Assembly: GCA_026415155.1 (NCBI GenBank)
Contig: JAOAHQ010000050.1
Coordinates: 1 to 32,963 of the forward strand
Direction of reading: 5' to 3'
Source: Rhodocyclaceae bacterium
Lineage (GTDB): Bacteria; Pseudomonadota; Gammaproteobacteria; Burkholderiales; Rhodocyclaceae
DNA: 32,963 nt
Below the pieces are notes generated by a model, which saw nothing but the letters and a program-made list of their open reading frames with translations, was not told where the DNA came from and ran no database searches. A program made the translations under genes and the position numbers. Shown piece by piece: positions 2,701 through 26,531 of the stretch; the stretch's first letter is position 1; each line of letters opens with the position of its first letter.

Positions 2701-3293
2701 GCAGCGAGCCGCTGGGCGAGCTCGACGGCGGAGCGCACGCCCATCTTCTCGAAGATGCGCGCACGGTGGGCTTCGACGGTGCGCATGGCGATCGAGAGTT
2801 CGTCGGCGATCACCTTGTTGAGCTTGCCGGCGAGGATTGCGGCCATCACTTCGCGCTCGCGTTCGGTCAGGGTGGCTAAACGTTCCTCGATCTCGGCCCG
2901 CAGGCCGTCCCGCCAGCGCCGACTTTCGTCGAGTTTGAGCGCCTCGATGACGCGGTCGGCGAGCTCGTTGTCGTTGAAGGGCTTTTCGATGAAGTCGAAG
3001 GCGCCTTGCTTCAAGGCCTTGACCGCCTGCGGCACGTCGCCGTGACCAGTCAGGAAGATCACCGGCAGCGCACAGCCGCGCGCGCGCAACACATCGAAGA
3101 GCTCGAGCCCGGTCATGCCGCTCATGCGGATGTCGAGAATCAGACAGCCGCTCATCTCGGGCCGATAGTCGGCAAGAAAGGCCTCGGCCGAAGGCCAGGC
3201 GGCCGCGGCGATGCCACGGGTGCGCAAGAGCCACAACAGGGCGTCGCGGATCGCCGCATCGTCATCGACGAGATGGGCTTGTCCCGTGCTCAT
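2676..3293 (-). CDS. FixJ/TtrR-family response regulator (receiver + LuxR HTH)
   Basis: This 205-aa transcription regulator is the probable partner of the kinase encoded just upstream. The receiver has paired acids DDD at 10-12, phosphoacceptor D54 (LILDIRM), T82 and K104 (FIEKPF). The LuxR/FixJ-type helix-turn-helix spans about 139-187 (LTEREREVMAAILAG...NKVIADELSIAMRTVEAHRARIFEKM). Its ATG overlaps the kinase TGA (ATGA), and it is the last gene of the liv operon. A likely target is the liv promoter or genes for breakdown of the transported compound; this is inference. The linker codons for RRWRDGL carry a copy of the dispersed repeat (2902-2926). Confidence 0.92.
   Translation of the reverse strand: MSTGQAHLVDDDAAIRDALLWLLRTRGIAAAAWPSAEAFLADYRPEMSGCLILDIRMSGMTGLELFDVLRARGCALPVIFLTGHGDVPQAVKALKQGAFDFIEKPFNDNELADRVIEALKLDESRRWRDGLRAEIEERLATLTEREREVMAAILAGKLNKVIADELSIAMRTVEAHRARIFEKMGVRSAVELAQRLAAYGSRDSR
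2902..2926 (+). repeat. Dispersed coding repeat, copy A
   Basis: This 25-bp copy has on the minus strand the core GGCGCTGGCGGGACGGC, preceded by AAAGTC and followed by CT. It is identical over 23 bp to copies B (13802-13824) and C (25554-25576), and 24/25 to copy E (21711-21735). It lies in the interdomain linker of the FixJ-type regulator and is read there as SRRWRDGL. Confidence 0.8.
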
Positions 3294-5287
3294 GCGGCTG
3301 TGATGGGCAGACTGATGTGAAAGATGCTGCCCCCTAGCGGGTTGGCTTCGAACCAGAGGCGGCCGCGGTGCGCTTCGACGACCGAGCGGCAGATGTTGAG
3401 GCCGACGCCTAGCCCTTCAGGCTTGGTCGTGTAGAAGGGTTCGAACAGCAAGGCGGCATCCTCTTTGGAAATGCCACAGCCGCGATCGGCCACCCAAAGG
3501 TGCATCTGTTCGCCTTCGCGCCGCGCACCGATGAGGAGCACGCGCTCGGCAGGCGGGGTCTGCCGCATTGCCTCGAGGCCATTTTTCATCAGATTGAAGA
3601 GCGCTTGGCCGAGCAGGACGCGGTCGGCTGCCAAGGTCGGCAAATCGCTCGCGATCTCGGTGACGATGCCGATCTTGTGGCGACGCGCTTCGGCTTCGAT
3701 GAGGACGACGAGATCGGTGATCAATGCCGAAAGATCGCAAGGCTCCGATTTCGGCTCGTGGCGGCGGGCGAATTCGTAGATGCGGCGGATGATGCGGCCG
3801 GCCCGCTGCGCCTGCTCCAAGCATTTCGCGAGCGCCGCGTCGATGGCGGCGACATCGAGGTGGCCGGCGGCGAGCAGATTGCGGCAGCCGGTCGCGTAAC
3901 CAGCAATGGCGGAGAGCGGCTGGTTGAGTTCGTGGGCGAGACTGGAGGCCATCTCGCCCATCGTAATGAGACGGGCGCTCGCCTGCAAGCGTTCTTCCTG
4001 CTGACGGGCAAGTTCCGCGCTGCGCTTTCTTTCTGTGATGTCGACCACCGAGCCCATCCAGCCGGTATGTCTGCCCTCGCCGTCGATCAGGGGGGCTTCG
4101 TGGATCAGCGCATCGAAGATCTCGCCATTGCGGCGCTTTAATTTGATCTCGAAACCTTCGAGCGGTGCTTCGCCGGCGAGCACCTTGGCGTGCATGGCGC
4201 GCGTCTCGTCCAGGTATTCGTCGGCCCAATAAGGCATGGGTGGACGCCGGCCGATGAGTTCCTCGGCCGGCCAGCCGACCATGCGGCAAAAGGCGGGATT
4301 GACATAGGTAATCATGCCATCGAGGGTGCGGGCGCGTAAGCCTGTTTGCACCGAATCTTCCATCGCCTTGCGGAAGGCGACCTCGCTTTGCAGGGCCGCT
4401 TCGGCGGCAAGGCGCCGCTGCATGTCGCGGCGCAACACCCAGAGGCTGACTAGCACCAGCGCGGCAAGCAGCACGAGGGCGGCGGCGATCAGCCGCCCCG
4501 CAAGCGGCTGGGGCGCTTTGTAGGGGATCGCCTCGAGGATCAGGCCCTGGCCGGGCGGGTCGAGGGGAATCTGGTAGGCGTTTTCGACGACGACGTCGCC
4601 AAACTTCGTGCGCGTGGCGAGCACCCGGCCAGCCGCATCGAGAAGGGCAATACGGTAACGCTCAGCAAGCCACCAGGGCGTGGCGGCCTCGATGAGGCGC
4701 GGCAGCGAATAGATGCCGACGGCCGTGGCGGCGTGCCGGCCTTCGCGAAAGAGTGGTACATGGACTTCGAGCTGCCAGCGCCCTCCCTCGGCGAGGGTAG
4801 GGGGCGCATAGACGGGAGCCTTCAGCGAACGGGCGAGGGCCTGGGTTTCGGCTGAAAACCCGGCCGATCCCCCGGCGCCGAGCGGAGGGTGGGCATGGCG
4901 CGCGCGTCCGTCGGCATCGAGCCAGACGATCTGCACGAGGCCGGTGTCATCGTTGATCAGCGTGCGGGCATGGGCTTCGAAGAAATCCGCGGCGTCGCCG
5001 CGTGATGCATCGAGCCGGCCGAGCAGCTCAGCATTGTGCTCGAGGGTGAAACGCAGGTTCTGCTCAAGCCACAGCATGTCGCTGATGAGGCTTGCGCGCT
5101 GCGCCTCGCGGTCGCTCCTTTCGAGATAGACGAGGAGGAGGATCACGGCCGCGACGAAGAGTAGGAAAGCGAGGCGCGGCAGCCACCACAGGCCGCGTCC
5201 CAGCCTCGTCGCGGGATAGTGCGTTGGCGTCCCGCCTGGGAAGGAATGACCCGTAAAAGTCTGTGCTGGCGGGACGGCCTTTTTCAT
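3290..5287 (-). CDS. Membrane PAS sensor histidine kinase (DctB/FixL-like)
   Basis: The 665-aa kinase has TM1 at about 37-55, a periplasmic region of about 200 residues (Cache-like by size and placement), and TM2 at about 264-286. A PAS domain follows at about 300-420 (GMITYVNPAFCRMVGWPAEE; PAC end GSVVDITERKR). The H-box is SSLAHELNQPLSAI with H452, the N-box NLMKNGLEA is near 565-573, and the ATP lid includes DRGCGI (601-606) and TTKPEGLGVGL. The HELNQPL form is typical of FixL/DctB-type kinases. The ATG lies directly after the livF stop and its TGA overlaps the regulator start, so it is transcribed with the transporter and probably senses its substrate outside the membrane. Residues 3-21 before TM1 are encoded by a palindromic repeat element. 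Confidence 0.92.
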   Translation of the reverse strand: MKKAVPPAQTFTGHSFPGGTPTHYPATRLGRGLWWLPRLAFLLFVAAVILLLVYLERSDREAQRASLISDMLWLEQNLRFTLEHNAELLGRLDASRGDAADFFEAHARTLINDDTGLVQIVWLDADGRARHAHPPLGAGGSAGFSAETQALARSLKAPVYAPPTLAEGGRWQLEVHVPLFREGRHAATAVGIYSLPRLIEAATPWWLAERYRIALLDAAGRVLATRTKFGDVVVENAYQIPLDPPGQGLILEAIPYKAPQPLAGRLIAAALVLLAALVLVSLWVLRRDMQRRLAAEAALQSEVAFRKAMEDSVQTGLRARTLDGMITYVNPAFCRMVGWPAEELIGRRPPMPYWADEYLDETRAMHAKVLAGEAPLEGFEIKLKRRNGEIFDALIHEAPLIDGEGRHTGWMGSVVDITERKRSAELARQQEERLQASARLITMGEMASSLAHELNQPLSAIAGYATGCRNLLAAGHLDVAAIDAALAKCLEQAQRAGRIIRRIYEFARRHEPKSEPCDLSALITDLVVLIEAEARRHKIGIVTEIASDLPTLAADRVLLGQALFNLMKNGLEAMRQTPPAERVLLIGARREGEQMHLWVADRGCGISKEDAALLFEPFYTTKPEGLGVGLNICRSVVEAHRGRLWFEANPLGGSIFHISLPITAA
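5226..5280 (-). repeat. Palindromic repeat element in kinase N-terminus (copy D)
   Basis: On the plus strand 5256-5280 matches copy A in 23 of 25 bases (core GTGCTGGCGGGACGGC). An inverted arm GGCGTCCCGCC (5226-5236) pairs with GGCGGGACGGC (5268-5278) with one mismatch, giving a palindromic element of about 53 bp. It encodes residues 3-21 of the histidine kinase (AVPPAQTFTG...), upstream of the first membrane segment, as an in-frame N-terminal addition. Only this copy shows both arms clearly. Confidence 0.75.
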
Positions 5288-5998
5288 CTAAAGCCCCAAA
5301 TAGCGATGCCAGAGGCCGTGATCTGCCGCCAGCGCCGCTGAATCGCCTTGCCAGACGACGCGGCCCTTTTCGATGATCGTGTGATGGTCGGCAAGCTCAA
5401 TGAGCCGCTCGACATACTTGTCGATGATGAGGATGGTTTGCCCCACCTCGCGCAAGGCGGCAAGACACCGCCAGATCTCCTCGCGCACGAGGGGGGCGAG
5501 GCCCTCGGTCGCCTCGTCGAGGATCAATAGGCGCGGATTCGTCGAAAGCGCCCGGCCGATCGCGAGCATCTGCTGCTCGCCGCCGGAGAGCTCGCTGCCG
5601 AGATGGTGCTGCCGTTCGGCAAGCTGCGGGAAGAAGGCAAACACCTTGGCGGGCGTCCAGGGGTTCTTGGCGCCGCAGCGATTGTCGGCAAAGGCGACGA
5701 GGTGCTCTTTGACGGTCAGGTTTGGAAAGACTTGGCGGCCTTCGGGGACGAGGCCGATCCCAAGCCGAGCGATCTGATGGGGCGGCATGCCGGCGATCGC
5801 CATGCCTGAAAAGCGAAGCTGCCCGCCACGCGGGGGCAAGAGGCCGCAGATCGCCCGCACTGTCGTTGTCTTGCCCATGCCGTTTCTGCCCAAGAGGGTG
5901 GCGACCTCGCCGGGGCGGATCGCAAGCGTGATGTTGAAAAGCACCTGGCTTTCGCCATAGGCGGCGGCAAGGGCCTCGATTTCGAGCAAGGGGGTCAT
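5288..5998 (-). CDS. livF: Branched-chain amino acid-type ABC transporter ATP-binding protein LivF
   Basis: This 236-aa cytoplasmic ATPase (E. coli LivF 237) belongs to the HAAT family importer. Walker A is GRNGMGKTT (about 37-45), the signature is LSGGEQQM, Walker B is LLILDEATEGLAP, and the PEGRQVFPNLTVKEH segment is typical of LivF. The frame is open upstream, but the conserved start MTPLLEIEALAAAYG and the ATGA overlap with livG fix the ATG at 5998. The kinase start codon follows its stop without a gap. The substrate could be a branched-chain amino acid, amide, urea-like or aromatic compound; the ATPase does not decide this. Confidence 0.94.
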   Translation of the reverse strand: MTPLLEIEALAAAYGESQVLFNITLAIRPGEVATLLGRNGMGKTTTVRAICGLLPPRGGQLRFSGMAIAGMPPHQIARLGIGLVPEGRQVFPNLTVKEHLVAFADNRCGAKNPWTPAKVFAFFPQLAERQHHLGSELSGGEQQMLAIGRALSTNPRLLILDEATEGLAPLVREEIWRCLAALREVGQTILIIDKYVERLIELADHHTIIEKGRVVWQGDSAALAADHGLWHRYLGL

Positions 5999-6753
5999 GC
6001 GCGCTCCTCCCCGAGATAGGCGCGCCGCACAGCGGGATCGGCGCGTACCGTTTCTGGCGTGCCCGTCGTGAGGATACGGCCCTCGACGAGCACCGAGAGG
6101 CGGTCGGCGAGCTTGAAGACGACCTCCATGTCGTGCTCGATGAGCAGCATGGTGAGTTTCCCTTTCAATGCGGCGAGCAGATGCGTCATGCGCTCGGCTT
6201 CCTCGGGCCCCAGGCCTGCCATCGGCTCGTCGAGCAAAAGGATGCGCGGCCGCGTGGCGAGCGCCATCGCGAGCTCCAGCGCGCGCCGCTCGCCATAGGC
6301 GAGTTCGCGCGCCAAGCAGCCGGCCTGCTCGGCGAGGCCCACCTGGCCCAGCCATTCCTCGGCTTCCTCGATCATCCAGACCTCGGCGCTCGCGGGCCGC
6401 CAGAAGCGGAAACTGCTGCCGGCATCGCTGCGCCTTCCTTGCACCGCGAGGCGCACGTTCTCGAGCGCGGTGAGCTCGCTGAACACCTGGCTGATCTGGA
6501 AAGAGCGCGTGATGCCCATAGCGACGCGTTCGTGCATTGATCGCGCCGTGATGTCACGGCCAGCGAGCCGCAGGCGCCCCGCGTCGGGCCGCAGGCTGCC
6601 GGAGACGAGGTGGATCAGCGTCGTCTTGCCGGCGCCATTGGGGCCGATCAGCGCATGCAATTCGTGCTCGGCGAGCGCGAGATCGACGCCATTCGTTGCC
6701 CAAACGCCGCCGAAATGTTTCTTGAGGCCGATGGCTTCGAGCAGCGCCGTCAT
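5995..6753 (-). CDS. livG: Branched-chain amino acid-type ABC transporter ATP-binding protein LivG
   Basis: This second ATPase of the importer is 252 aa (E. coli LivG 255). Walker A GPNGAGKTT is at about 37-45. RSFQISQVFSELTALENVRLA is the LivG-type Q-loop region, the signature is LAYGERRALELAMAL, and Walker B is ILLLDEPMAGL. LLIEHDMEVVFKLADRLSVL carries the switch histidine. The Q-loop and ERR-type signature distinguish LivG from LivF. It has ATGA overlaps with livM upstream and livF downstream. Confidence 0.94.
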   Translation of the reverse strand: MTALLEAIGLKKHFGGVWATNGVDLALAEHELHALIGPNGAGKTTLIHLVSGSLRPDAGRLRLAGRDITARSMHERVAMGITRSFQISQVFSELTALENVRLAVQGRRSDAGSSFRFWRPASAEVWMIEEAEEWLGQVGLAEQAGCLARELAYGERRALELAMALATRPRILLLDEPMAGLGPEEAERMTHLLAALKGKLTMLLIEHDMEVVFKLADRLSVLVEGRILTTGTPETVRADPAVRRAYLGEERA

Positions 6754-7682
6754 CCGCGCCTCCTTTTGCCCGCGAGCCCCGCGAGCCCCGCGGGGGCGAA
6801 CGAGATCACGGCCAGCAGCGCGAGGCCGACATAAAGATGGCTATGCTCGGTGAAAAGCGCGAGCGCCTCTTCGAGCCCCAACAGCGCCGCGGCGCCGAAC
6901 AGGCCGCCATAGCGATGGCCGACGCCGCCGAGAATCACCATCACGAGCAGCAGGCCCGATTGCGTCCAATAAAGCATCGCGGGACTTGCCATGCCGTTTT
7001 GGTTGGCGAGCAGCGCCCCCGCGAGCCCCGCGACGGCCGCGCCGATGACGAAGCAGGCGAGCTGGAGTGCCCGCACCGGATAACCGAGCGCCTCCATGCG
7101 CAACGGGTTTTGCCGTACGCCGGCGAGCGCGTGGCCAAAGCGCGAGGCGGCCAAGCGCTTCAACCCGTAGAGGCTCGCGGCGAGCAGGCCGAGGGCGACC
7201 CAGTAGAGCGTGGCATCCTCGGCCAGATCGAAGGGGGCGAGCGTCGAGCGCTGCGCGAGCGGCAGGCCATCTTCCCCGCCGGCGAGCTTGAACGAGACGA
7301 CCGTGTAATAGATCATCTGGGCGAAGGCGAGCGTGATCATGATGAAATAGACGCCGCGCGTGCGCAGCGAGACGAGGCCGATCGCAAAGGCGGTGAGCGC
7401 CGCCAAGGCCATCGCCAGCGGCCAGGCGAGCCAGGCCGAGGAGAGGCCGGCTTGCATGGCGAGCGCGACGACATAGGCACCGAGGCCGAAGAAGGCGGCG
7501 TGGCCGAAGGCGACCAGGCCGCCGTAACCCACGACGAAATTGAGGCTCGTCGCGGCGAGCGCAAAGATCAGGACGCGCGTCGCGAAGCCGATGTAGTAGG
7601 CCTCGCCGAGGCTATCGAGCAGCCAAGGCATGGCCAGCGCTGCGCCCCAGAGCAGCGGTTCGAAGGGAATCTTCCGGCTCAT
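6750..7682 (-). CDS. livM: Branched-chain amino acid-type ABC transporter permease LivM
   Basis: This 310-aa inner-membrane permease has the conserved family segment LNFVVGYGGLVAFGHAAFFGLGAY at about 47-70 and many hydrophobic helices. The coupling region toward the C-terminus includes GHALAGVRQNPLRMEALGYPVRALQLACFVIGAAVAGLAGAL. The start MSRKIPFEP at 7682 was chosen because it makes an ATGA overlap with livH; the frame stays open further upstream but that part is out of family. The C-terminus (SFAPAGLAGLAGKRRRG) is normal for LivM. Confidence 0.93.
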   Translation of the reverse strand: MSRKIPFEPLLWGAALAMPWLLDSLGEAYYIGFATRVLIFALAATSLNFVVGYGGLVAFGHAAFFGLGAYVVALAMQAGLSSAWLAWPLAMALAALTAFAIGLVSLRTRGVYFIMITLAFAQMIYYTVVSFKLAGGEDGLPLAQRSTLAPFDLAEDATLYWVALGLLAASLYGLKRLAASRFGHALAGVRQNPLRMEALGYPVRALQLACFVIGAAVAGLAGALLANQNGMASPAMLYWTQSGLLLVMVILGGVGHRYGGLFGAAALLGLEEALALFTEHSHLYVGLALLAVISFAPAGLAGLAGKRRRG

Positions 7683-8593: not shown

Positions 8594-8656
8594 CGGCTCT
8601 CTGCCCGCGGGTTCTTCGCTTCGCCGGTGTGGCCCCAGCAGTGGAGCCGAGCAGCT

Positions 8657-8992
8657 CTAGGCAGGACGCGGCTTGTGGTTGGCCTTGGCCTGCGCCCCGC
8701 GCGCGCCTTTGCGTTGCTTCTTGAAACGGTTCTTGCTGCCCGGCGCAGGCTTGCCTCCGCCGCCATAGTTCGCGAAGGGCTGGCCGCTGATGCGATTGCC
8801 CGGCGCAGTCTGGATTTCGAGCTCGTTGAGCTCGTCCCATTCGGCATCGGTGCGGTCGCGCTCCGGGATGGCCAAGAGCTCGCGGATACGCCGCCGCGGA
8901 TCGAATGGCGGCTGAGGTGCGGGGGCCGGCTGGGAAACGACTTCGTTCTCCAGCGGCGCGACTGGTTGAACGCTTTCTTGAGACAAGGGCAA
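8657..8992 (-). CDS. Hypothetical small protein with basic C-terminus
   Basis: I do not recognise this 111-aa protein as a named family. Residues 1-30 are Pro/Ala-rich and disordered-looking, residues 31-65 form a likely helical, acidic core (RRRIRELLAIPERDRTDAEWDELNELE), and the tail from about 75 is Gly/Lys/Arg-rich (SKNRFKKQRKGARGAQ). Such a tail would suit RNA or ribosome contact, which is inference only. It sits between tRNA-fMet and livH on the same strand, 63 bases before livH, so read-through into the transporter operon is possible. Composition fits a real gene, but confidence rests on the open frame and lack of a better competitor. Confidence 0.6.
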   Translation of the reverse strand: MPLSQESVQPVAPLENEVVSQPAPAPQPPFDPRRRIRELLAIPERDRTDAEWDELNELEIQTAPGNRISGQPFANYGGGGKPAPGSKNRFKKQRKGARGAQAKANHKPRPA

Positions 8993-9018
8993 TTCTCTTG
9001 GCGACTGGGTATCGCGTT

Positions 9019-9052
9019 GCGCCGGCCTAGTGTCTCGTTATCGGGCCGGCGC
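9019..9052 (-). other. Inverted repeat downstream of tRNA-fMet
   Basis: GCGCCGGCC (9019-9027) and GGCCGGCGC (9044-9052) form a 9-bp stem with a 16-base loop. It starts 13 bases past the tRNA 3' end on the minus strand. There is no T-run after it, so it may be a weak terminator or 3'-processing hairpin rather than a standard intrinsic terminator. It also lies just upstream of the 8657-8992 gene. Confidence 0.4.
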
Positions 9053-9064
9053 GAGGAATTCGGT

Positions 9065-9202: not shown

Positions 9203-10063
9203 TCACATGGCGAGGCAAAGCTCGAGCTGAGTCTCCCACGGTACGGGCACCAGGCCGAAATCCTCGCGCAGGCGGGTGCAGTCGAGACGCGAATTGGCCG
9301 GCCGGCGCGCGGCGGTCGGATAGTCGGCGCTCGCCAGACGGCGCACCGGCGGGCATTTCCCGATCAGGCCGCGCGCGTAAGCCAGCGAAAGGATGCGCTC
9401 GGCAAAGCCATGCCAGCTCGTTTCCCCCGCAGCCGTCAGGTGATACAGCCCTTGCTGGCCCCGATAACGCGCCAAGGCGAGCGCCGTCGTCTCGGCGATC
9501 ATGCGGCTCCAGGTCGGCGCGCCGATCTGGTCCGCGACGACGGCGAGCTCGTCGCGTTCTTGCGCAAGCCGCAGCATCGTGAGCAGGAAATTCTTGCCGC
9601 GCCGGCCATAGAGCCAGCTGACGCGGAAGATTAGATGACGGCAGCCGCTCGCCATGATCGCCTGCTCGCCGGCGTGCTTGCTCGCGCCATAGACATTGAG
9701 CGGGCAAGTGGCATCGGTTTCGACATAGGCGCCTGCTTTCGTCCCGTCGAAGACATAGTCGGTCGAGTAGTGGATGAGCAGGGCGCCGAGCCGACGCGCT
9801 TCCTCGGCCAGCAGGGCGGGCGCCGTCGCGTTGATGGCCATCGCACGTTCCGGCTCGCGCTCGGCTTGATCGACGGCCGTGTAGGCGGCCGGATTGACGA
9901 TGATGTCCGGCCGATGGGTCTCCAACGCCGCGCGGAGGCTCTCGGGCCGCGCGAGATCGAGCGCTTGCCGGTCACAGCCGATCACCTCTCCGAGCGGCGG
10001 CAGGGTGCGCATGAGTTCCCAGCCGAGCTGGCCGTGAATGCCGGTGAGGAGGATGCGCGTCAC
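9203..10063 (-). CDS. rfbD: dTDP-4-dehydrorhamnose reductase
   Basis: RmlD (286 aa) performs the last step, NAD(P)H reduction of dTDP-4-keto-L-rhamnose to dTDP-L-rhamnose. The N-terminal Rossmann motif is TGIHGQLGWEL (7-17). The SDR catalytic set is T101 in STDYVFDG and Y125-x3-K129 in YGASK. The C-terminal LASADYPTAARRPANSRLD is a family signature for substrate binding. The start is GTG at 10063, which makes a GTGA overlap with rfbC. It is the last gene of the seven-gene sensor-cyclase-rhamnose unit. Confidence 0.95.
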   Translation of the reverse strand: MTRILLTGIHGQLGWELMRTLPPLGEVIGCDRQALDLARPESLRAALETHRPDIIVNPAAYTAVDQAEREPERAMAINATAPALLAEEARRLGALLIHYSTDYVFDGTKAGAYVETDATCPLNVYGASKHAGEQAIMASGCRHLIFRVSWLYGRRGKNFLLTMLRLAQERDELAVVADQIGAPTWSRMIAETTALALARYRGQQGLYHLTAAGETSWHGFAERILSLAYARGLIGKCPPVRRLASADYPTAARRPANSRLDCTRLREDFGLVPVPWETQLELCLAM

Positions 10064-12556: not shown

Positions 12557-14341
12557 CTAGGCCGCCATGACGCGGTTCTTGCCGGCGCGCTTGGCGAGAT
12601 ACATTGCGGCATCGGCGCGCTGCAAGGCCTCATGCGCAGATTCCGCTTCGCCGAGCAGCGCGACGCCGCAGCTGAAGGTGATCAAAAGCTTTTCGTTGTT
12701 GTGCAGGAAGAAACGCTTGGTGAGCTCGCGCTGCACGCGTACCATCGCATTGACGGCATCGTCGAGCGCCGTGTTGGGCAGGATGACGACGAATTCCTCG
12801 CCGCCGTAGCGCGCCAGCGTGTCTTCCGGGCGGATCGTTTCGCGCACGACCTTGGCGAGATGTTGCAGTGCCGCATCGCCCGCCGCGTGCCCCAGGCTGT
12901 CGTTGAGCTTCTTGAAGTTGTCGATGTCGAGCAGCGCCAGGCAGAGCGTGCCGCCGTGGCGCTTCATGCGGGCGATTTCGGTTTCGAAGGCCTCGTCGAG
13001 GCCCTTGCGGTTCAAGGCACCGGTCAAGGGGTCGGTGCGCACGAGATCGCTCGCGTTGGCGAGTTCTTGCTGCAGGCGCTCGACCTCGCGCTCGGCTTCG
13101 GCGACGCGGGCGCGCATCTCGTTGAGCTCGTCGCGCGAGCGTTGCGCATTGAGCTGGATGACGCGCGTCTCGCGCATCACCTCTTCGATGACCTCCGTGA
13201 GTTCCGCAATGTCGTTGGCGCGGCTGATCTTCTCGGCGCAACGCTCGAGCTTGTCGTGGTAATCGCTCGTCGATTCGGCAAAGCCGGCGAGCCGGTCGAC
13301 GAAGCTGGCCAGCATCGCCTTGATGCGGTCTCTTGCTTCGAGGAGGCTCTTCTTGAGCGCGCCTTGCTTGAAGATGACGTCCTTCAAGCGGCGCTCGACG
13401 TCGTCGAGGCGACGCAGGTTGAGCGGCTCTCTGACCAATTCGAGCACGACGGCGATCTGGCCTTGCAGATATCGATCGTCGAGCACGAGCTCGTTGATGT
13501 TGTCGATCACGAGGTGCAAAAGGTGCACGAGGCCCGCCTTGAGCTCGACCTGGTCTTCGGCCACGAAATTGAGCCGGTAGCCAAAGCGCTTCATCTGGGT
13601 GACGAAAACGGCCACCTCTTCAGTGCTGCGGACGGCGCGCGCGGTCTTGGCCAGCCGCGCCGCCTCTTCGGCCAGCTCGCGCTCGTCGGCCAGCAGCACG
13701 CTGATCGAGGTTTCGAGCAGTTGGGCGAGCAGGTCGAGGAGGTCGCTCGTGACTCCCTTAAGCGGGCTGCCTGCAGCCGCCGCAGGCGAGGATGCGCTGG
13801 CAGTCGGCGCTGGCGGGACGGCCTCTTGAGCGGCCTCATCGCCTGAAGCCGCGGCGATTTCTGGTGTCGCGGCCTCGAGCAGGGCGGCTTGCGACCAGCT
13901 CTTGAGCAGGCCTTGCAGGCGGCCATAGAGCAGCTCGGGGCTCGTCGAGGCGGTGAGCACGTGATCGAGCGCCTCGCGTTTTCGCGCCGGCGTGAGTTCG
14001 GCCTGGCGCGCCTCGAGCCGCGTGAGGAGTTCCCGGATCAAGGCGGCCCAATTGGGCGGCTCGGCGCCGAATTTATTGAAGAGCTCGGCGAGTGCAATCT
14101 TCAATCCTTCCCAGCTCTTGTCATTGATGGCAGCCTCGAGCTGGCGAGCCAGGCGCGCCTGCTCTGGCGAGCTCTTTGGCAGCGCCGCGGCAATACTCTT
14201 GAGCGTTTTTTCCGGGAATGCCTCGGTCGCCGTGGTGCCGGCGATCTCGTGATAGAGGGTGCGGTAGTTGTCGGGCGTGGGCGGAATGCGCTGCTGGGCA
14301 AGCCGCTTTAAGGTTTCGCGCGCGATTTCGGAGGGGTTCAT
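12557..14341 (-). CDS. Diguanylate cyclase (GGDEF) with long helical N-terminus
   Basis: This 594-aa soluble protein probably makes c-di-GMP from two GTP. The C-terminal GGDEF domain spans about 430-594, with DPLTGALNRKGLDEAF, LLDIDNFKKLNDSLGH and active site GGEEF at 513-517. An inhibitory I-site RPED (504-507) lies five residues before it, so product inhibition is expected. The N-terminal 430 residues have no named domain that I recognise. The start SEIARETLKRLAQQRIPPTPDNYRTLYHEIAG recurs in betaproteobacterial GGDEF proteins, and much of 200-430 looks coiled-coil. Residues about 165-192 form an Ala/Pro linker holding repeat copy B. No membrane segment. It lies 6 bases after the NarL-type regulator and 9 before rfbB. 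Confidence 0.9.
   Translation of the reverse strand: MNPSEIARETLKRLAQQRIPPTPDNYRTLYHEIAGTTATEAFPEKTLKSIAAALPKSSPEQARLARQLEAAINDKSWEGLKIALAELFNKFGAEPPNWAALIRELLTRLEARQAELTPARKREALDHVLTASTSPELLYGRLQGLLKSWSQAALLEAATPEIAAASGDEAAQEAVPPAPTASASSPAAAAGSPLKGVTSDLLDLLAQLLETSISVLLADERELAEEAARLAKTARAVRSTEEVAVFVTQMKRFGYRLNFVAEDQVELKAGLVHLLHLVIDNINELVLDDRYLQGQIAVVLELVREPLNLRRLDDVERRLKDVIFKQGALKKSLLEARDRIKAMLASFVDRLAGFAESTSDYHDKLERCAEKISRANDIAELTEVIEEVMRETRVIQLNAQRSRDELNEMRARVAEAEREVERLQQELANASDLVRTDPLTGALNRKGLDEAFETEIARMKRHGGTLCLALLDIDNFKKLNDSLGHAAGDAALQHLAKVVRETIRPEDTLARYGGEEFVVILPNTALDDAVNAMVRVQRELTKRFFLHNNEKLLITFSCGVALLGEAESAHEALQRADAAMYLAKRAGKNRVMAA
13802..13824 (-). repeat. Dispersed coding repeat, copy B
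   Basis: This 23-bp copy is identical to copy A over its full length (plus-strand core GGCGCTGGCGGGACGGC followed by CT). It lies in the Ala/Pro-rich linker of the GGDEF protein and is read as EAVPPAPT (residues 173-180), the same frame as the kinase copy (KAVPPAQT) and the TonB copy (QAVPLAPT). Confidence 0.8.
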
Positions 14342-20369: not shown

Positions 20370-20373
20370 GCCT

Positions 20374-21426
20374 TCATTGCTCTGCCTTGATGCGGGCGGC
20401 GGCGGCGCGAAAGAGCCGGAGCGCCTCGCTGCGGCGGCCAGCGGCCTCGGCGGCGTGGGCGGCGGCGAGGAGCTCGTCGATGCTCGCCTCGTCATTGCCG
20501 GCGTAGGCAAAGCGCACGATCTGTTCGCCCGGCCGGTCGCGCCGCGCACGGATGACGAGCGCCTTGGGCGCGCCTTCCGCCGTCTGGCCGGCGCCGACTT
20601 TCGTTGGCCTTTGCTGCGCCTTGAGTTCGGCGAGCGCCTTGCGGTAGCTCGCGAGCGCCTCGTCGCGGCGGCCTTGGGATTCGGCCAGCCGCGCCATGCG
20701 CAGGTATTCCTCGACGACGTCTGGCGCTGGTTGTGAGCGCAGCGGCGGGGGCGGCGGATTCGTGCTTGCCTCACGCGCCAGCGAAGCGAAGCGCTCGACG
20801 CTCGCCAAGGACTTGGCGATGGCGTAGTTCCGCTGGCGCATCGCCCAGGTGATGGCATCGTCGCCATAGTCGTTTTTGAGCCGCGGGTCGGCACCCGCTG
20901 CGACGAGCCGCTCGGCGATCGCGGCATGCCCTTCGCGCGCGGCCATCATGAGCACCGTCGAGCCATTCGTCGAACGGGCGTTGACCTCTGCGCCGCGCGT
21001 GAGCAGCGTCTCGACGATGGCGGTGTGTCCAGCGAAGGCGGCATAGTGCAGCGCCGTCCATTGACGCTCGGGCCGGTTGGGCCGGGCGCCGCGCGCTAAG
21101 AGCCAGTCGAGCGCCTCGCGCTGGTTTTTCCAGGCGGCGAGCATCAGCGCCGTCTCGCCGAAGCGGTTGGTGCGCTCGAGATCGGCGCCGCGCGAGTAGA
21201 AGAGCTCCATGAGCGCGATGTTGCCGCTCCAGGCGCCGATCATGAGGCCGGTGCCGATGAGTGCGCCTTCGAAGTCCGGATCGAGGCCAGCATCGAGCCA
21301 AGTGCGGGCCTGGGCCACGTCGCCGAGCTCGAGGCGCACCGAAAAGCGCACCGGATCGGGCAGTTCCGTGGCGGCGACGGCGAATGGGAAGAGGACGACG
21401 AGCAGCAGAGCGATCCAGCGTTTCAT
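20374..21426 (-). CDS. Exported ankyrin-repeat protein with TPR-like helices
   Basis: This 350-aa protein has a signal peptide (KRWIALLLVVLFPFAVAATE, cleavage near residue 18-20). Four to five ankyrin repeats span about 55-210 (e.g. GETALMLAAWKNQREALDWLLARGA, TALHYAAFAGHTAIVETLLTRGAEVN). A PPPPP linker follows near 224, then two separate short helical TPR-like units (about 236-272 and 313-350). It should act in the periplasm by protein binding; partners are unknown. The start MKRW at 21426 follows the signal peptide; the longer frame adds an implausible N-terminus. KVGAGQTAEG (276-285) is encoded by a degenerate repeat copy. Convergent with the CBS gene (4-base gap), divergent from the TonB-like gene (about 40 bases). 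Confidence 0.85.
   Translation of the reverse strand: MKRWIALLLVVLFPFAVAATELPDPVRFSVRLELGDVAQARTWLDAGLDPDFEGALIGTGLMIGAWSGNIALMELFYSRGADLERTNRFGETALMLAAWKNQREALDWLLARGARPNRPERQWTALHYAAFAGHTAIVETLLTRGAEVNARSTNGSTVLMMAAREGHAAIAERLVAAGADPRLKNDYGDDAITWAMRQRNYAIAKSLASVERFASLAREASTNPPPPPLRSQPAPDVVEEYLRMARLAESQGRRDEALASYRKALAELKAQQRPTKVGAGQTAEGAPKALVIRARRDRPGEQIVRFAYAGNDEASIDELLAAAHAAEAAGRRSEALRLFRAAAARIKAEQ
20577..20601 (+). repeat. Dispersed coding repeat, degenerate copy F
   Basis: This site matches copy A at 20 of 25 bases and ends in the same GCGCCGACTTT. It lies in the linker of the ankyrin protein and is read as KVGAGQTAEG, close to the KVGAGGTAQSG read from copy C in the ABC ATPase. The shared peptide frame supports common origin more than the DNA match alone. 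Confidence 0.5.
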
Positions 21427-21466
21427 CGAGGAGAGTCTACCCTGCTGCGGTAGCATGCGCGGCATC

Positions 21467-22024
21467 ATGGCGACGATGATTGGGCATCATTACTCGGCGG
21501 GCGACCGGCTGCTACCGGCGCTCGTGCTGAGCCTAGTGCTGCATGCGCTGCTCTTCTTCCCTTGGCGCTGGCCTACTGCTGCGCGGCCGCCAGCGCCACT
21601 CGAAGTGAGCCTGCCGCCGCTGTCAGCCGCGCCGGCGCTCGCTACCCTGCCCAGGCCAGAGCCTTTGCCCACCGAGGCTGAAGGGGGCGGAGCGCCTACC
21701 ATACCCCAGCAGGCCGTCCCGCTAGCGCCGACTTTGCGCACCCCGAAGCCGCGGCCGCTCACCGGGCAAGCACTCTCGGCCGCGCTCGCTGCGCTTACCC
21801 AAGAGGAGTTCTATCCGCGCGCCGCGATCGAGCAGGGGCTCGAAGGCCGCGTCGTGCTGCTGCTTTCCCTCGATGCCGCTGGCCGCGTGAGGGGCGTGAC
21901 GGTGGCGGCGAGTTCCGGCCATCTTTTGCTCGACGATGCGGCCGTGCGCGCGGCCTCCCGCATCGGCGCCTTGCCACTCTCTGCCGGCGAGGCGCTTCTA
22001 CCCGTGGAGTTTCGCCTCGAATGA
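21467..22024 (+). CDS. TonB-like energy transducer protein
   Basis: This 185-aa inner-membrane protein has one N-terminal helix (about 14-32, LLPALVLSLVLHALLFF), a Pro-rich periplasmic spacer (40-100), and a TonB C-terminal domain (about 115-185: YPRAAIEQGLEGRVVLLLSLDAAGRVRGVTVAASSGHLLLDDAAVRAA). It would pass ExbB/ExbD energy to an outer-membrane receptor; neither ExbBD nor a receptor is in the window. In-frame ATGs at 21455, 21467 and 21476 are all possible. The stop overlaps the next ATG (ATGA), so it heads an operon with the Cys-cluster protein and the peptide-type ABC importer. Repeat copy E encodes AVPLAPT in the Pro-rich spacer. Confidence 0.82.
   Translation: MATMIGHHYSAGDRLLPALVLSLVLHALLFFPWRWPTAARPPAPLEVSLPPLSAAPALATLPRPEPLPTEAEGGGAPTIPQQAVPLAPTLRTPKPRPLTGQALSAALAALTQEEFYPRAAIEQGLEGRVVLLLSLDAAGRVRGVTVAASSGHLLLDDAAVRAASRIGALPLSAGEALLPVEFRLE
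21711..21735 (+). repeat. Dispersed coding repeat, copy E
   Basis: This 25-bp copy matches copy A with one difference (T at 21723 where A has C). It is read as QAVPLAPTL in the Pro-rich spacer of the TonB-like protein, the same frame as copies B and D. Confidence 0.8.
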
Positions 22025-22302
22025 AGGAGATTCGCCTAAACGCCGCCGCGCCAGAAAAGCCCGCGCCCGGGGCGCCTTGCAATGGCTGCGGTGTTTGCTG
22101 CGCGCTTTCGCCCTGTCCGCTCTCGCGTTTCTTGCTCGGTCACCGGCAGGGCGTCTGTCCGGCGCTTTCCTGGCAAGGCGCGCGCTACTGGTGCGGGCTC
22201 ATCGAGGCGCCGCGGGGTGGCGCGCGCTTCTTGCCGCGCGCCTTACGGCTGCGCTGGATTGGCGCAGGCCTCGGCTGCGATTGCGACGCCGAATTGCTAT
22301 AG
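22021..22302 (+). CDS. Small CxxCxxCC cysteine-cluster protein (YkgJ-like)
   Basis: This 93-aa protein has CNGCGVCC at about 20-27, followed by further cysteines (CPLSRF, GVCPALSW, YWCGL, GCDCDAE). The CxxCxxCC pattern is that of the YkgJ-type zinc/iron-binding protein group, usually longer. It may bind a metal or Fe-S cluster; its role is unknown. Its ATG overlaps the TonB-like stop and it ends 10 bases before the peptide-type permease, so it belongs to that operon. Confidence 0.78.
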   Translation: MKEIRLNAAAPEKPAPGAPCNGCGVCCALSPCPLSRFLLGHRQGVCPALSWQGARYWCGLIEAPRGGARFLPRALRLRWIGAGLGCDCDAELL

Positions 22303-22312
22303 TCGTAAGCCG

Positions 22313-23290
22313 ATGCTTGCCTATCTGATCCGCCGCCTCCTCTATGCCGTGCCGATCCTGATCGGCGTCAACGTCATCACCTTCGCGCTCTTCTTCGTCG
22401 TCAACACGCCCGATGACATGGCGCGCATGCAGCTTGGCGTCAAGCATGTGACGCCCGAGGCGATCGAGAAGTGGAAGGCCGAACGCGGCTATGACAAGCC
22501 GCTCTTTTGGAACGCCGCGGCGAGCGGCGCGGGCAAGCTCACCGAGACGATCTTCTTCGAAAAATCGCTGAAGATGTTCGCGCTCGACTTCGGCCGCGCC
22601 GACGACGGCCGCGACATCGCGCGCGAGATTCGCCAGCGCATGGGGCCATCGCTTGCCGTCGCTGTGCCAGTGTTCGTGCTGGGACTCTTTGCGGCGATTT
22701 CGTTTGCCTTGCTGCTCGTCTATTTCCGCGCCACCTATCTCGATTTTGCCGGCGTCGTGCTCTGTGTGGCGATGATGTCGGTCTCGAGCCTCTTTTACAT
22801 CATCGGCGGCCAGTGGCTCGTCGCCAAGGTTTGGCATCTGGTGCCGATCTCGGGGTATGGCGAGGGGCTTTCCGCGGCCAAATTCATCGTCTTGCCGGTC
22901 GTCATCAGCGTGCTCGCCGGCCTGGGCGCCTCGGCGCGCTGGTATCGCACGATCTTCCTCGAGGAAATCACGCGCGACTATGTGCGCACGGCGCGCGCCA
23001 AGGGCTTGTCGGAGCGCCTCGTGCTGTTCCGCCACGTGCTCAGGAATGCCCTGATTCCGATCCTCACCGGCGCGGTGGTGCTGATTCCTTCGCTCTTCAT
23101 GGGCAGCCTCTTGATCGAGGCTTTCTTCGGCATTCCGGGTCTGGGCAGCTACACGATCGAGGCGATCAACGCGCAGGACTTTGCCGTGGTGCGTGCGATG
23201 GTCTTCATCGGCTCGGCGCTCTACATCCTTGGCCTTTTGCTCACCGACATCTCCTATACGATTGCCGACCCGAGGATCCGGCTGCAATGA
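22313..23290 (+). CDS. Peptide-type ABC transporter permease (OppB/DppB/YejB family)
   Basis: This 325-aa inner-membrane permease starts MLAYLIRRLLYAVPILIGVNVITFALFF, the classic OppB/DppB N-terminus. It carries the EAA coupling loop YVRTARAKGLSERLVLFRHVLRNALIPILT (about 223-252) and ends NAQDFAVVRAMVFIGSALYILGLLLTDISYTIADPRIRL. The frame is open upstream, but MLAYLIRR at 22313 is the family start. No Shine-Dalgarno is visible, and translation may be coupled to the gene 10 bases upstream. It has an ATGA overlap with the next permease. The likely substrate is a peptide or muropeptide. Confidence 0.92.
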   Translation: MLAYLIRRLLYAVPILIGVNVITFALFFVVNTPDDMARMQLGVKHVTPEAIEKWKAERGYDKPLFWNAAASGAGKLTETIFFEKSLKMFALDFGRADDGRDIAREIRQRMGPSLAVAVPVFVLGLFAAISFALLLVYFRATYLDFAGVVLCVAMMSVSSLFYIIGGQWLVAKVWHLVPISGYGEGLSAAKFIVLPVVISVLAGLGASARWYRTIFLEEITRDYVRTARAKGLSERLVLFRHVLRNALIPILTGAVVLIPSLFMGSLLIEAFFGIPGLGSYTIEAINAQDFAVVRAMVFIGSALYILGLLLTDISYTIADPRIRLQ

Positions 23291-24618
23291 AGTTCGTCTT
23301 GCTTTGGTCGGATTTCCTTTTCTTCCTGCTCGTCGCGGGCGGTGTGATTTTCGGCCTGTGGGCTCGCCGCGTCGAACACCAGCGCGCCGCCTGGCGCAAG
23401 GTGGGCCAAAGCCGCGTCGGCATGGCGGCGGCGACGGTGCTGGTGCTTTTTCTCGCCGTGGCACTCCTCGATTCCGTGCATTACCGCGAGCGGCTGCCGG
23501 GCGAAGGCGAGCACTATGCCGTCGAGGTGCGTTCGGTCTTGGACGCCTTACTGACACCTTTGCGCACGCGGCCGGAGAAAACCTATTCGGCGCCCTTGGC
23601 CACGCATTCCTTTGCCAAGGAAAACATCGCTGGCGAGGGGCGCGACTTTCCGCGCCTCAAATTCGGCGGCGCTCACCTAGGCGAGGCGCTTTCCCGCCAC
23701 GGCGCGGATATCGCGCTGCGCTGCGCGCAGGGGCTCGGACTCGGGGCGGTTGCCGGCTTGGCGCTGTGGCTCGCCGGCCTGCCTTTGCGCCGGCGGGCGC
23801 CCCATTTGGCCTGGGATGCGGTCTTCGTCACGCTTGGCGTGTTTTGTCTCATCGCCGGCCCCCTCGCCATGCTCGCCCAGGGCTACCATGTGCTCGGCAC
23901 CGACAAGGTGGGGCAGGACGTGCTCTATTTGACCTTGAAGAGCATCCGCACGGGCCTGTTGATCGGTACGCTCACGACGCTCATCATGCTGCCGGCGGCG
24001 ATCTTCCTCGGCATCCTGGCCGGCTATGCGGGCGGCTGGATCGACGACGTGATCCAGTATCTCTATACGACGCTCAACTCGATTCCGGGCGTGCTCCTGA
24101 TCGCCGCAGCGGTGCTCATGATGCAGGTGATGATCGACACCCATCCGCAGTGGTTTTCGACGAGCGCCGAGCGGGCCGATGCGCGGCTCCTCGCCCTGTG
24201 CGCGATTCTCGGGCTCACGAGCTGGACGGGCTTGTGCCGGCTCTTGCGCGGCGAGACGCTCAAGCTGCGCGAGCTCGAATACGTGCAAGCGGCGCGCGCG
24301 CTGGGGGTCTCGAGCGGGCGCATCCTCACGCGCCACATCCTGCCCAATGTGATGCACCTCGTCATCATCGCCATCGTGATGGATTTTTCCGGGCTGGTGC
24401 TCGCCGAGGCAGTGCTCTCCTACGTCGGCATCGGTGTCGATCCGAACACGATCAGCTTCGGCACGATGATCAACACCGCGCGCATGGAGCTCGCGCGCGA
24501 GCCGATGGTCTGGTGGTCTTTGACGGCCGCTTTCGTCTTCATGTTCGTGCTCGTGCTGGCGGCGAATCTGTTCGCCGACGTCGTGCGCGACGCCTTCGAT
24601 CCCCGGCTGGCGCGATGA
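23287..24618 (+). CDS. Peptide-type ABC transporter permease (OppC/DppC/YejE family), enlarged
   Basis: This permease partners the preceding one. It is 443 aa, versus about 300-340 for the family. An extra N-terminal helix (about 4-24) precedes the usual first one (43-61), and an inserted region at about 62-195 includes two further hydrophobic segments (about 147-164 and 176-197). The core then resumes at GTDKVGQDVLYLTLKSIRTGLLIG, with five helices and an EAA loop YVQAARALGVSSGRILTRHILPNVMH (332-357). The C-terminus LFADVVRDAFDPRL is standard. The insert is continuous in frame, so this is a real enlargement and not a frameshift artefact. It has ATGA overlaps on both sides. Confidence 0.9.
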   Translation: MKFVLLWSDFLFFLLVAGGVIFGLWARRVEHQRAAWRKVGQSRVGMAAATVLVLFLAVALLDSVHYRERLPGEGEHYAVEVRSVLDALLTPLRTRPEKTYSAPLATHSFAKENIAGEGRDFPRLKFGGAHLGEALSRHGADIALRCAQGLGLGAVAGLALWLAGLPLRRRAPHLAWDAVFVTLGVFCLIAGPLAMLAQGYHVLGTDKVGQDVLYLTLKSIRTGLLIGTLTTLIMLPAAIFLGILAGYAGGWIDDVIQYLYTTLNSIPGVLLIAAAVLMMQVMIDTHPQWFSTSAERADARLLALCAILGLTSWTGLCRLLRGETLKLRELEYVQAARALGVSSGRILTRHILPNVMHLVIIAIVMDFSGLVLAEAVLSYVGIGVDPNTISFGTMINTARMELAREPMVWWSLTAAFVFMFVLVLAANLFADVVRDAFDPRLAR

Positions 24619-26531
24619 CGCTGCTTACGGTGCGCGATCTAACGGTCGAAATCGGCGCGGCGCGGCCGGTCGAGGGCGTCTCGTTCGAGATTGCCGCGGG
24701 CGAGACCTTCGCGCTCGTCGGCGAATCGGGCTGCGGCAAGACGCTCACGGCGCTCGCCCTCCTGCGCCTGCTTCCCGAGGCGGCGCGCATCGAGTCTGGA
24801 AGCATTCGGTTCGCCGGCGAAGAATTGCTTGCGCTCTCCGAGGCCGAGATGCGCAAGAGGCGCGGCGGCCAGCTTGGCATGATCTTTCAGGAGCCGGCGA
24901 CGAGCCTCAATCCCGTCATGACCATCGGCGCGCAGATCGCCGAGGCGCTCGCCCTGCATGGCGGTGGAGCGAGCGAGGCAAAAGCCGTCGACTTGCTCTC
25001 GGCCGTCGGCATTCCCGATCCGGCGCGCCGTGCGAGGGAATATCCGTTTCAGCTCTCCGGCGGCATGAAGCAGCGCGCAATGATCGCGATGGCCTTGGCC
25101 GGTGCGCCGCAGCTCTTGATCGCCGATGAGCCGACTACGGCGCTCGATGTCACGATCCAGGCCCAGGTGCTCGAGCTGCTTGCCCGACTGCAAGAAGCGC
25201 GCGGCATGGCGATGCTGCTCATCACTCATGATCTAGGCATCGTCGCCCAACAGGCGCAGCGCGTCGGGGTCATGTATGCCGGCCAGCTCGTCGAGCTTGC
25301 GCCGCGCACCGCTTTTTTCAGCGCGCCGAGTCACCCTTACGCGCGGCGGCTCTTTGCCGCCTTGCCGGCGGCTGGCCGGCGCGGCCGGCTGCAGACCTTG
25401 CCCGGCAGCGTGCCGTCGCCGGCGCAGCGGCCGGATGGCTGCCGCTTCGCGAGCCGCTGCGATGTCGCGCTGCCGGTCTGCGCCCATGAGCCGCCGCCCT
25501 GGCGGGAAATCGCGCCGGGCCAGCAGGTGCGTTGCCATCTCGAAGAACCCCGGAAAGTCGGCGCTGGCGGGACGGCACAATCTGGCGCGGCAGTGCCGGA
25601 ACCGCCGCCTGCCACGGCGCTCCTCGCGGTGCGCGATCTCGCCGTGCACTTTCCGATCCGGCGCGGCCTCTTGCAGCGTCCGGTTGGCTGGGTGCGCGCC
25701 GTGGATGGCATCGATCTCGAGCTGCCGGCCGGGCGCACGCTCGCCTTGGTCGGCGAATCCGGCTGCGGCAAGACGACCGCCGGACGGGCGATCCTGGGCC
25801 TGCAAGCCGCGACGCGCGGCGAGCGGCTCTGGCAGGGCGAAGCGCTCAAAGGGCTCGCCCCGCAGCGCATGCAGATGGTGTTCCAGGACCCGTTTGGCTC
25901 GCTCAATCCTCGCCTGCGTGTCGGTGCGATCGTCAAAGAAGGCAACCCAACGGCCGATGTCGGCGCGCTGCTGGCCGCCGTGGGGCTCGAACCCGAGATG
26001 GCGAAGCGTTATCCGCATGAGTTTTCAGGGGGGCAGCGTCAGCGCATCGCCATTGCGCGCGCGCTCGCGGTGGATCCGCAGCTCTTGATTTGCGATGAGC
26101 CGACCTCGGCGCTCGATGTCTCGGTGCAGGCGCAAATTCTCAATCTCCTCGTCGAGTTGCAGGAGGAGCGGGGGCTCGCCTATCTCTTCATCACCCACAA
26201 TCTCGCCGTCGTCGAACATCTCGCTCACCAGGTGGCGGTCATGTATCTCGGCCGTATCGTCGAGCAAGGCAGCGTCGATGAAGTCATGAGGACGCCGCAG
26301 CACCCCTACACCCAAGCGCTGCTTGCTGCCGTGCCGCGCATCGATACCTCAGGCAAGGCCGACCGCGAGCGCCTGCTTGTGCCTGGCGACCCGCCCTCAC
26401 CGGCCCAGCCGCCGCCGGGCTGTCATTTCCACCCGCGCTGCCCACGCGCGGCGGCACGCTGCCGCGCGGCCTACCCTGAGGCCGTCCAGCTGTCGGCGAC
26501 TCACGGCGTGCGCTGTTTCTTCCCGGGCTAG
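24615..26531 (+). CDS. Peptide-type ABC transporter, fused dual ATPase (OppD-OppF/YejF type)
   Basis: This 638-aa protein holds two complete ABC domains. Domain 1 (about 3-310) has Walker A GESGCGKT (36-43), signature LSGGMKQR (147-154), Walker B LLIADEPTTALD, and the Opp-type Cys-rich tail CRFASRCDVALPVC. Domain 2 (about 335-638) has GESGCGKTT (380-388), FSGGQRQR (470-477), LLICDEPTSALD, and tail CHFHPRCPRAAARC. The linker at 311-334 includes KVGAGGTA, encoded by repeat copy C. YejF in E. coli has the same fused plan. The ATG at 24615 overlaps the permease TGA; a longer upstream frame is spurious. The stop overlaps the convergent mltD stop (CTAG). No substrate-binding protein is encoded nearby. 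Confidence 0.93.
   Translation: MTLLTVRDLTVEIGAARPVEGVSFEIAAGETFALVGESGCGKTLTALALLRLLPEAARIESGSIRFAGEELLALSEAEMRKRRGGQLGMIFQEPATSLNPVMTIGAQIAEALALHGGGASEAKAVDLLSAVGIPDPARRAREYPFQLSGGMKQRAMIAMALAGAPQLLIADEPTTALDVTIQAQVLELLARLQEARGMAMLLITHDLGIVAQQAQRVGVMYAGQLVELAPRTAFFSAPSHPYARRLFAALPAAGRRGRLQTLPGSVPSPAQRPDGCRFASRCDVALPVCAHEPPPWREIAPGQQVRCHLEEPRKVGAGGTAQSGAAVPEPPPATALLAVRDLAVHFPIRRGLLQRPVGWVRAVDGIDLELPAGRTLALVGESGCGKTTAGRAILGLQAATRGERLWQGEALKGLAPQRMQMVFQDPFGSLNPRLRVGAIVKEGNPTADVGALLAAVGLEPEMAKRYPHEFSGGQRQRIAIARALAVDPQLLICDEPTSALDVSVQAQILNLLVELQEERGLAYLFITHNLAVVEHLAHQVAVMYLGRIVEQGSVDEVMRTPQHPYTQALLAAVPRIDTSGKADRERLLVPGDPPSPAQPPPGCHFHPRCPRAAARCRAAYPEAVQLSATHGVRCFFPG
25554..25576 (-). repeat. Dispersed coding repeat, copy C
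   Basis: Its 23 bases are identical to copy A (AAAGTC then core GGCGCTGGCGGGACGGC on the plus strand). It sits exactly in the linker joining the two ATPase domains and is read as KVGAGGTA, in antisense orientation relative to copies B, D and E. Confidence 0.8.

Follow-up and report, generated by a model that had tools for sequence, protein, structure and literature searches.

The window, the whole 32,963-nt stretch of Rhodocyclaceae DNA analysed here, contains eight copies of the 23-mer AAAgTCGGCGCtGGCggGACGGC with up to four mismatches: two are exact, and one, two, one and two copies carry one, two, three and four mismatches, respectively. An exact copy at 2904–2926 (minus strand) lies inside a gene call at 2676–3293 (−), where it is read SRRWRDG; it is kept with zero to three changes or a 1-nt gap in seven of nine aligned relatives and is absent from G006 and G016. 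The copy at 5256–5278 (+, two mismatches) lies in a gap between gene calls or else where a gene starts. An inverted arm upstream of it gives a weak hairpin, with a fold z-score of only −0.77, and no terminator was called at this copy. The copy at 13800–13822 (+, two mismatches, the first two A residues being changed) is read AVPPAPT inside a gene call at 12557–14341 (−), and that at 20579–20601 (−, three mismatches) is in the KVGAGxT frame inside a gene call at 20374–21426 (−). The copy at 21713–21735 (−, one mismatch) overlaps the edge of the 21734–22024 (+) gene call, and the second exact copy, at 25554–25576 (+), is read KVGAGGT inside a gene call at 24615–26531 (+).

All six of these sites had been named in a first-pass annotation of the window, and each is present where it was placed. 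Two further copies that it missed, both degenerate with four mismatches, are found at 9320–9342 (+), inside a gene call at 9203–10063 (−), and at 32896–32918 (−), inside a gene call at 32724–32963 (+). Its judgment that the repeats are beyond chance is borne out: 1000 letter shuffles of the motif averaged 0.001 window matches at up to three mismatches, and no shuffle had more than one. Its further statement that all the sites are within coding sequence is not confirmed; by our simple gene calls, six of the eight window copies are inside genes, the 5256 copy falls between genes or where one starts, and the 21713 copy overlaps a gene edge.

The repeat unit and its abundance

Alignment of 104 copies from the genome to which the window belongs (G000, the own genome) defines the repeat unit as a non-palindromic 23-mer with sharp bounds, in which an A-rich end adjoins a GC-rich core. 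The copies were chosen by a 20-mer with up to three mismatches, so that the conservation of at least 0.94 at 15 of the 20 positions after the AAA is due in part to selection; it is lower at positions 0, 8, 9, 12 and 13, counted along the 20-mer. The AAA, which lies outside the selecting 20-mer, is conserved at 0.79–0.88, and conservation is at background level outside the unit.

Within 418,057 bases of the own genome (the window plus 20 stretches), the 23-mer occurs 108 times, with 16, 26, 27, 19 and 20 copies at zero, one, two, three and four mismatches. The reversed motif and the complemented motif gave no copies at zero to four mismatches in the same sample, and 200 letter shuffles of the 23-mer gave a mean of 0.03 in total. 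A search of the entire genome had been proposed in the first-pass annotation; across the 2.38 Mb, the 17-mer core with up to one mismatch occurs 149 times on the forward and 155 times on the reverse strand, the reversed control giving 0 and 1, respectively. The same annotation had considered that counts might be no higher than expected from codon usage, but one motif 12-mer is present 39 times against 0.1 expected under a fourth-order Markov model. Motif 12-mers were the top over-represented words found de novo in G000, G017, G016 and G026, four of the five genomes first tested, and within 80 kb sampled from the own genome CRISPR-like words rank above the motif. The motif density is about 1 per 3.8 kb. 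The repeat is thus a single word that is both spread genome-wide and over-represented, as is required of a DNA uptake sequence.

Placement in genes, frames, strands and hairpins

Genes were called by our own simple codon-model caller, which gave 410 genes with 90.7% coding and 9.3% noncoding DNA. Most of the 108 copies (84) are inside genes, 39 on the same and 45 on the opposite strand, with 20 being intergenic and four partial. The 84 coding copies use five of the six reading frames, being read AVPPAPT (33), KVGAGGT (31), RPASADF (12), KSALAGR (7) and SRRWRDG (1); none is read PSRQRRL. That 64 of them are in two frames would be expected if the repeat were a conserved peptide or a codon-usage artefact, for example of KVGAGGT or AVPPAPT linkers. 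A peptide motif is refuted by the use of five frames on both strands, by the intergenic location of 20 of the 108 copies and by the Markov excess of the 12-mer, and we regard an origin of this kind as next to impossible.

The motif is bipartite, its conserved AAAGTC and ACGGC ends flanking a looser centre, a layout that a family of restriction-modification or epigenetic recognition sites, or a transcription factor regulon, could share. Known bipartite restriction-modification sites are, however, shorter and are not known to be amplified above chance, and the location of 84 of the 108 copies inside genes on either strand is unlike a regulon, making an explanation from this group very improbable.

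The copies in the stretches of the own genome are balanced between the strands (57 versus 47), which answers the question of orientation bias that had been raised in the first-pass annotation. In the single-contig genome G017, the leading strand carries 48–52 of the 85 exact copies across nine origin/terminus choices made by GC skew (p = 0.13 for 50), and the spacing of exact copies is random, with a CV of 1.04. These distributions bear on the possibility that the repeat is an intracellular signal for chromosome organisation or recombination, such as Chi, KOPS, a Ter-binding or SMC-loading site or a nucleoid protein site. The Chi and KOPS octamers resemble the repeat in having hundreds of short oriented copies per genome, and a signal of this type would agree with the genome-wide spread, the conservation at the DNA level and the many coding copies. 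Oriented signals of the Chi and KOPS type are short and strongly skewed to the leading strand, whereas the motif is 23 bp long and about strand-balanced; the lack of significant strand bias led us to reject Chi and KOPS as candidates, and the random spacing also counts against a chromosomal signal.

Intergenic copies are in excess, with 20 of 108 copies in the 9.3% of the DNA that is noncoding (p = 0.0025), and they are associated with hairpins. Of the 20 copies between genes, six have an inverted arm within 60 nt, compared with 100 of 1260 random 23-mers (p = 0.004); the coding copies had inverted arms at 8 of 84, no different from random 23-mers. Strong hairpin folds were obtained at three loci, L010, L024 and L025 (z-scores of −3.5 to −5.5). 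At L112, in a relative, a perfect inverted motif pair immediately follows a TGA triplet, a possible gene end, and ends in six T residues, a run that includes the motif's own TTT (z = −10.5); T-tails were examined at this locus and around window position 5256. Full inverted motif pairs are rare, with one among 417 sites in 1.64 Mb, half of which was fetched because it bears the motif. At one gene end, the motif orientations are opposite in G000 (L022:15411) and G017 (L259:4444).

Orthologous sites and species dialects

The first-pass annotation described the repeat as inserted in genes and proposed a mobile short element of the Rickettsia palindromic element type as one explanation, together with a comparison of orthologues for presence or absence of the segment. 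We compared 61 sites of G000, G017 and G016 with orthologous stretches from the genus, giving 122 site-by-orthologue pairs in which 83 orthologues keep the motif, nine have a degenerate form and 30 are without it. Over a 103-nt window, 11 of the 30 motif-less pairs have zero length difference, two orthologues are shorter by 20–26 nt, one is shorter by 27 nt and 16 show other differences. Among the 83 motif-keeping pairs, 29 have zero length difference and one orthologue is shorter by 20–26 nt, and the corresponding numbers for 832 control windows are 677 and two. The surroundings of the motif are therefore rich in indels with or without the motif, and length changes are seldom motif-sized, although a few such cases exist. 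The three of 30 motif-less pairs that are shorter by 20–27 nt exceed the controls, and in a few cases the motif may thus have been deleted or inserted.

Across the 122 pairs, identity is 0.80–0.92 at 14 of the 23 motif columns versus about 0.65 in the flanks, values that are possibly inflated by BLAST anchoring on the motif. The AAA end (0.66–0.76) and columns 3, 11 and 15–18 (0.56–0.67) are no better kept between species than the flanks. At the orthologues of the window 13800 copy, G016 carries a form with C4 and G19 and G005 a form with T23 at the aligned place, so that three species have three dialects at a single site. From the orthologue lengths and these in-situ dialects, we conclude that the copies arise by point substitution, not insertion.

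A mobile element, whether Rickettsia palindromic element-like or a small transposase-mobilised repeat, tolerated in genes, would account for the numerous near-identical copies, including those in genes and linker-like stretches, and for the three shortened motif-less orthologues. Rickettsia palindromic elements and REP-like repeats are likewise short repeats, some of them within genes. Rickettsia palindromic elements are longer palindromic inserts, however, whereas the motif is not palindromic and leaves no general insertion signature, and an insert of 23 nt, which is not a multiple of three, would shift the reading frame. Eleven of the 30 motif-less pairs show no length difference at all, and in G005 and G016 the copies of one genome have a species-specific base in common by which the orthologous site differs. 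Mobility is largely refuted by the orthologue lengths, and we consider it highly unlikely. The interpretation given in the first-pass annotation is thus supported in part, its second suggestion, a recurring signal of the uptake-motif kind, being well supported by the abundance, strand balance, five frames, sharp bounds, substitution origin and intergenic hairpin association of the copies and above all by their dialects.

The copies change in concert between species while retaining the frame AAAGTC-N12-ACGGC or nearly so. The G016 dialect is GAAACTCGGCGCTGGCGgGGCGGCG (C4, G19; 49 sites in 185.5 kb) and that of G026 is AAAAGTCGGTGCTGGCGGgACGGCG (GGTG; 24 sites in 100 kb), and G017 has 85 sites in 400 kb. 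G028, which belongs to another genus, has AAAGTCAGTCCC... with the end CACGGCG (12 sites in 80 kb). Among the matches listed, G480 also has AAAGTCAGTCCC... with the centre AGTCCC, like G028, and G455 has AAAGTCGACGCTGG... with the end ACGGC (GACGC). G282 is weak, with nine sites in 80 kb and motif words not on top, and de novo word counts gave no such word in G023, G036 and G033 (80 kb each) or in G006 (165.5 kb). The copies of G005 end in ACGGT (T23), which explains why this genome has only 39 matches to the tolerant pattern AAASTC-N12-RCGGC. Twelve of 17 G005 sites (20-mer, up to four mismatches, 60 kb) combine an AAASTC or GAAGTC head with the ACGGT end; of the other five, one lacks the head but has ACGGT, one ends in ACGCC and three are chance-like. 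Species dialects are genome-wide.

The tolerant pattern was counted in 150 genomes of the family, the own genome included; a genome was scored as enriched if it had 40 or more matches and its count was no less than threefold that of the reversed control. The pattern is enriched in 21 of the 150 genomes and 10 of 68 genera, with counts against the control ranging from 74 versus 16 to 715 versus 33. G519 (49 versus 19) and G464 (41 versus 24) are borderline, and the remaining genomes are near or below the control. Within the genus, 17 of 19 members have at least 270 matches, and G006 has 24 against 4 in the control, a weak excess without a consensus. The 20-mer with up to one mismatch is present in 28 to 473 copies in 18 of the 19 genus members and in none in G006; elsewhere in the family, G019 has 208 and G026 has 325 copies and 16 other genomes have 0–4. 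Among 399 genomes of the order, only G000, G002, G017 and G282, all of family f1, are rich in the 20-mer, the rest having 0–5 copies, and no other family stands out for AAASTC-N12-ACGGC in these 399 genomes, the nearest being G118 with 21 versus 7.

In public genomes, the exact 23-mer was found in at least 114 stretches; among the matches listed, most are titled Rhodocyclaceae, Sulfuritalea, Sulfurisoma or Propionivibrio, some have no title narrower than Betaproteobacteria, Gammaproteobacteria or Proteobacteria, and Thiobacillus, Casimicrobiaceae and Azonexus each appear as the title of a single stretch. The exact 20-mer is also present in 54 viral-contig stretches.

The dialects bear further on a chromosome-organising or recombination signal. 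Such sites can evolve by substitution too, but a 23-bp site that hardly varies at about 15 of its positions and has hundreds of copies and species dialects would be unusual for this class, and G006, which is sister to other genus members in a ComEC tree, manages without the motif. Together with the strand and spacing data, these features make a signal of this type unlikely.

Competence genes and comparison with known uptake sequences

ComEC is encoded in 34 of 37 genomes, including the own genome, and the motif-less G006 has it as well; its presence in both motif-bearing and motif-less genomes means that it does not discriminate between them. G006 sits on a long branch of the ComEC tree, as the sister lineage of the 17 motif-bearing members of the genus that the tree includes. 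The own genome has 13 N-methyl pilin matches, and its sole match to PF16732 (ComP_DUS) is a PilE-like protein (G000:C25, E = 9e-12) encoded in a pilE-fimT-pilV-pilW operon. This PilE was considered and rejected as a diagnostic receptor: the operon is common to motif-less genera, PF16732 is found in 53 of 61 genomes, motif-less ones among them, and the type of PilE found varies within the genus, whereas the motif does not. PF16732 thus does not identify the receptor. A FimT-family minor pilin is predicted to be the receptor for the Pasteurellaceae uptake signal sequence (USS) in the relevant part of PMC12616744, making FimT a candidate receptor here.

We conclude that the repeat is very probably a DNA uptake sequence, maintained through biased uptake together with recombination, and we infer its role in uptake from the properties described above. 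A surface receptor of the type IV pilus, probably a minor pilin, would bind double-stranded DNA with AAAgTCGGCGCtGGCggGACGGC and favour its uptake. Homologous DNA taken up in this way would recombine with the chromosome, such that better-matching alleles keep entering the population (molecular drive). Copies would arise by point substitution in tolerant places, namely protein linkers, termini, gene ends and hairpins, without restriction to one strand and in any reading frame that accommodates them, and as the preference of the receptor drifts the copies would follow, producing species dialects on AAAGTC-N12-ACGGC. Points against an uptake sequence are the non-diagnostic machinery, the low density, the rarity of inverted pairs, the three of 30 shortened orthologues and the poorly kept columns.

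A more specific proposal, which we think likely, is that the Rhodocyclaceae are a third family to have evolved self-specific uptake, with a 23-bp bipartite signal whose AAAGTC and ACGGC anchors are 12 bp apart, centre and anchor dialects in at least 10 genera, a minor pilin receptor that is not a ComP orthologue (FimT being the candidate), and copy sets rewritten in concert upon receptor change. Strong uptake preferences for short motifs are attributed to species of two families, Pasteurellaceae and Neisseriaceae, in the section of PMC7811141 (2020) on this subject, and the portion of a 2026 survey of terminator motifs (PMC13020248) that treats uptake sequences places them in the same two families. 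In the open-licence PMC literature, we found no description of the motif letters or of a Rhodocyclaceae or Rhodocyclales uptake sequence, which may be described elsewhere; the motif letters appear in open-licence PMC papers as chance 10-mers only, among the matches listed. If the proposal is true, a third family would stand beside Pasteurellaceae and Neisseriaceae, and a case in bacteria known largely from environmental metagenomes would put to the test the notion that mucosal habitats, with their competing host DNA, are where uptake sequences evolve. The many dialects in one family would provide a natural experiment on co-evolution of receptor and genome and on dialect isolation of species, and the motif would supply a rule for transforming these bacteria.

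The repeat has much in common with the Neisseriaceae DNA uptake sequence (DUS), GCCGTCTGAA and its dialects, whose receptor is ComP. As the DUS is portrayed in passages of PMC3630211, both are genome-wide non-palindromic words in permissive places with species dialects, and the terminator-like inverted pairs of the DUS may have a counterpart in the intergenic inverted arms and the rare full pairs seen here. The reverse complement of the main Rhodocyclaceae dialect also starts with GCCGTC, and the own genome encodes a PF16732 (ComP_DUS) pilin. Unlike the 10–12-bp DUS, the Rhodocyclaceae motif is 23 bp long and bipartite, and it belongs to a different family. A CTG core is conserved across all DUS dialects according to the dialect description in PMC3630211, but the dialect of G028 and G480 (AAAGTCAGTCCC..., centre AGTCCC) is without the conserved CTG. 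PF16732 proteins are also present in motif-less relatives, so that a ComP orthologue is not specific to motif-bearing genomes. Judged by its letters, with no invariant CTG, and by the lack of a diagnostic ComP, the motif is not a member of the DUS.

The Pasteurellaceae USS (AAGTGCGGT) is similar in being abundant and, in the account in PMC7811141 of its origin, in arising by point mutation rather than insertion. It differs in sequence, architecture and lineage, and the same account puts the Haemophilus USS at one copy per roughly 1,000 bp on average, versus about 1 per 3.8 kb here. As a sequence, the consensus contains no AAGTGCGGT core and so is not a USS member either. Taken together, the abundance of the motif, its occurrence on either strand, its origin by substitution, its placement in permissive sites, its hairpins and its dialects fit the published picture of the DUS and USS better than any other class considered, and because the motif fits their description while being a member of neither, it probably represents a separate uptake-sequence system.

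FimT C-terminus and ComEC in genomes with and without the motif

The C-termini of the candidate minor-pilin receptor FimT were compared between genomes with and without the motif. Among FimT proteins of the CDP/CNP type, Arg lies two residues ahead of the Cys in nine of the 10 from motif-bearing genomes (L299:2247-2768, L301, L302, L303, L304, L307, L308, L310, L317 and L318) and Lys in the remaining one, whereas the four from motif-less genomes (L300, L311, L312 and L316) have Val (genomes G006 and G022) or Lys (G020 and G030) at this position, a post hoc contrast that covers few independent lineages. FimT is of a different type in L305, L306, L309 and L314, and the comparison was made without L313 and L315. 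G006, the one member of the genus that lacks the motif, encodes the DNA-uptake channel protein ComEC (L379); the branch of this protein is long, at 1.14 changes per column, possibly a sign of faster evolution.

A further dialect candidate and other repeated words

The word AAAGTCAGTC is over-represented in L405-L408 of genome G552 (genus g217), with four copies versus 0.04 expected, and is perhaps one further dialect with a different tail. Other repeats were also noticed. In the own genome (L009-L012; contigs C4 and C10), a repeat that includes CAAAGGGATTGAGAC, longer and richer in AT, occurs about 12 times and is possibly a CRISPR array. GTAACCCGTAACCC words, over-represented in L256-L275 of G017, are probably a tandem repeat. 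The exact 23-mer AAACTCGACGTAGCTCATGCGGC occurs about 10 times on contigs C1 and C3 of G506, which lacks the uptake-like motif, and is probably a repeated element unrelated to it.

Paired copies of the motif

Five direct pairs of motif copies were found, at L011:2813 and 2867, L271:19258 and 19312, L025:10850 and 10909, L066:6208 and 6291, and L125:2987 and 3029; their separation ranges from 42 to 83 nt and is 54 nt in two of the five. At L112:5032-5107 (JACDZI010000028.1), two copies of the 23-mer form a perfect inverted pair that directly follows a TGA triplet and has six T residues at its end, an arrangement that is terminator-like.
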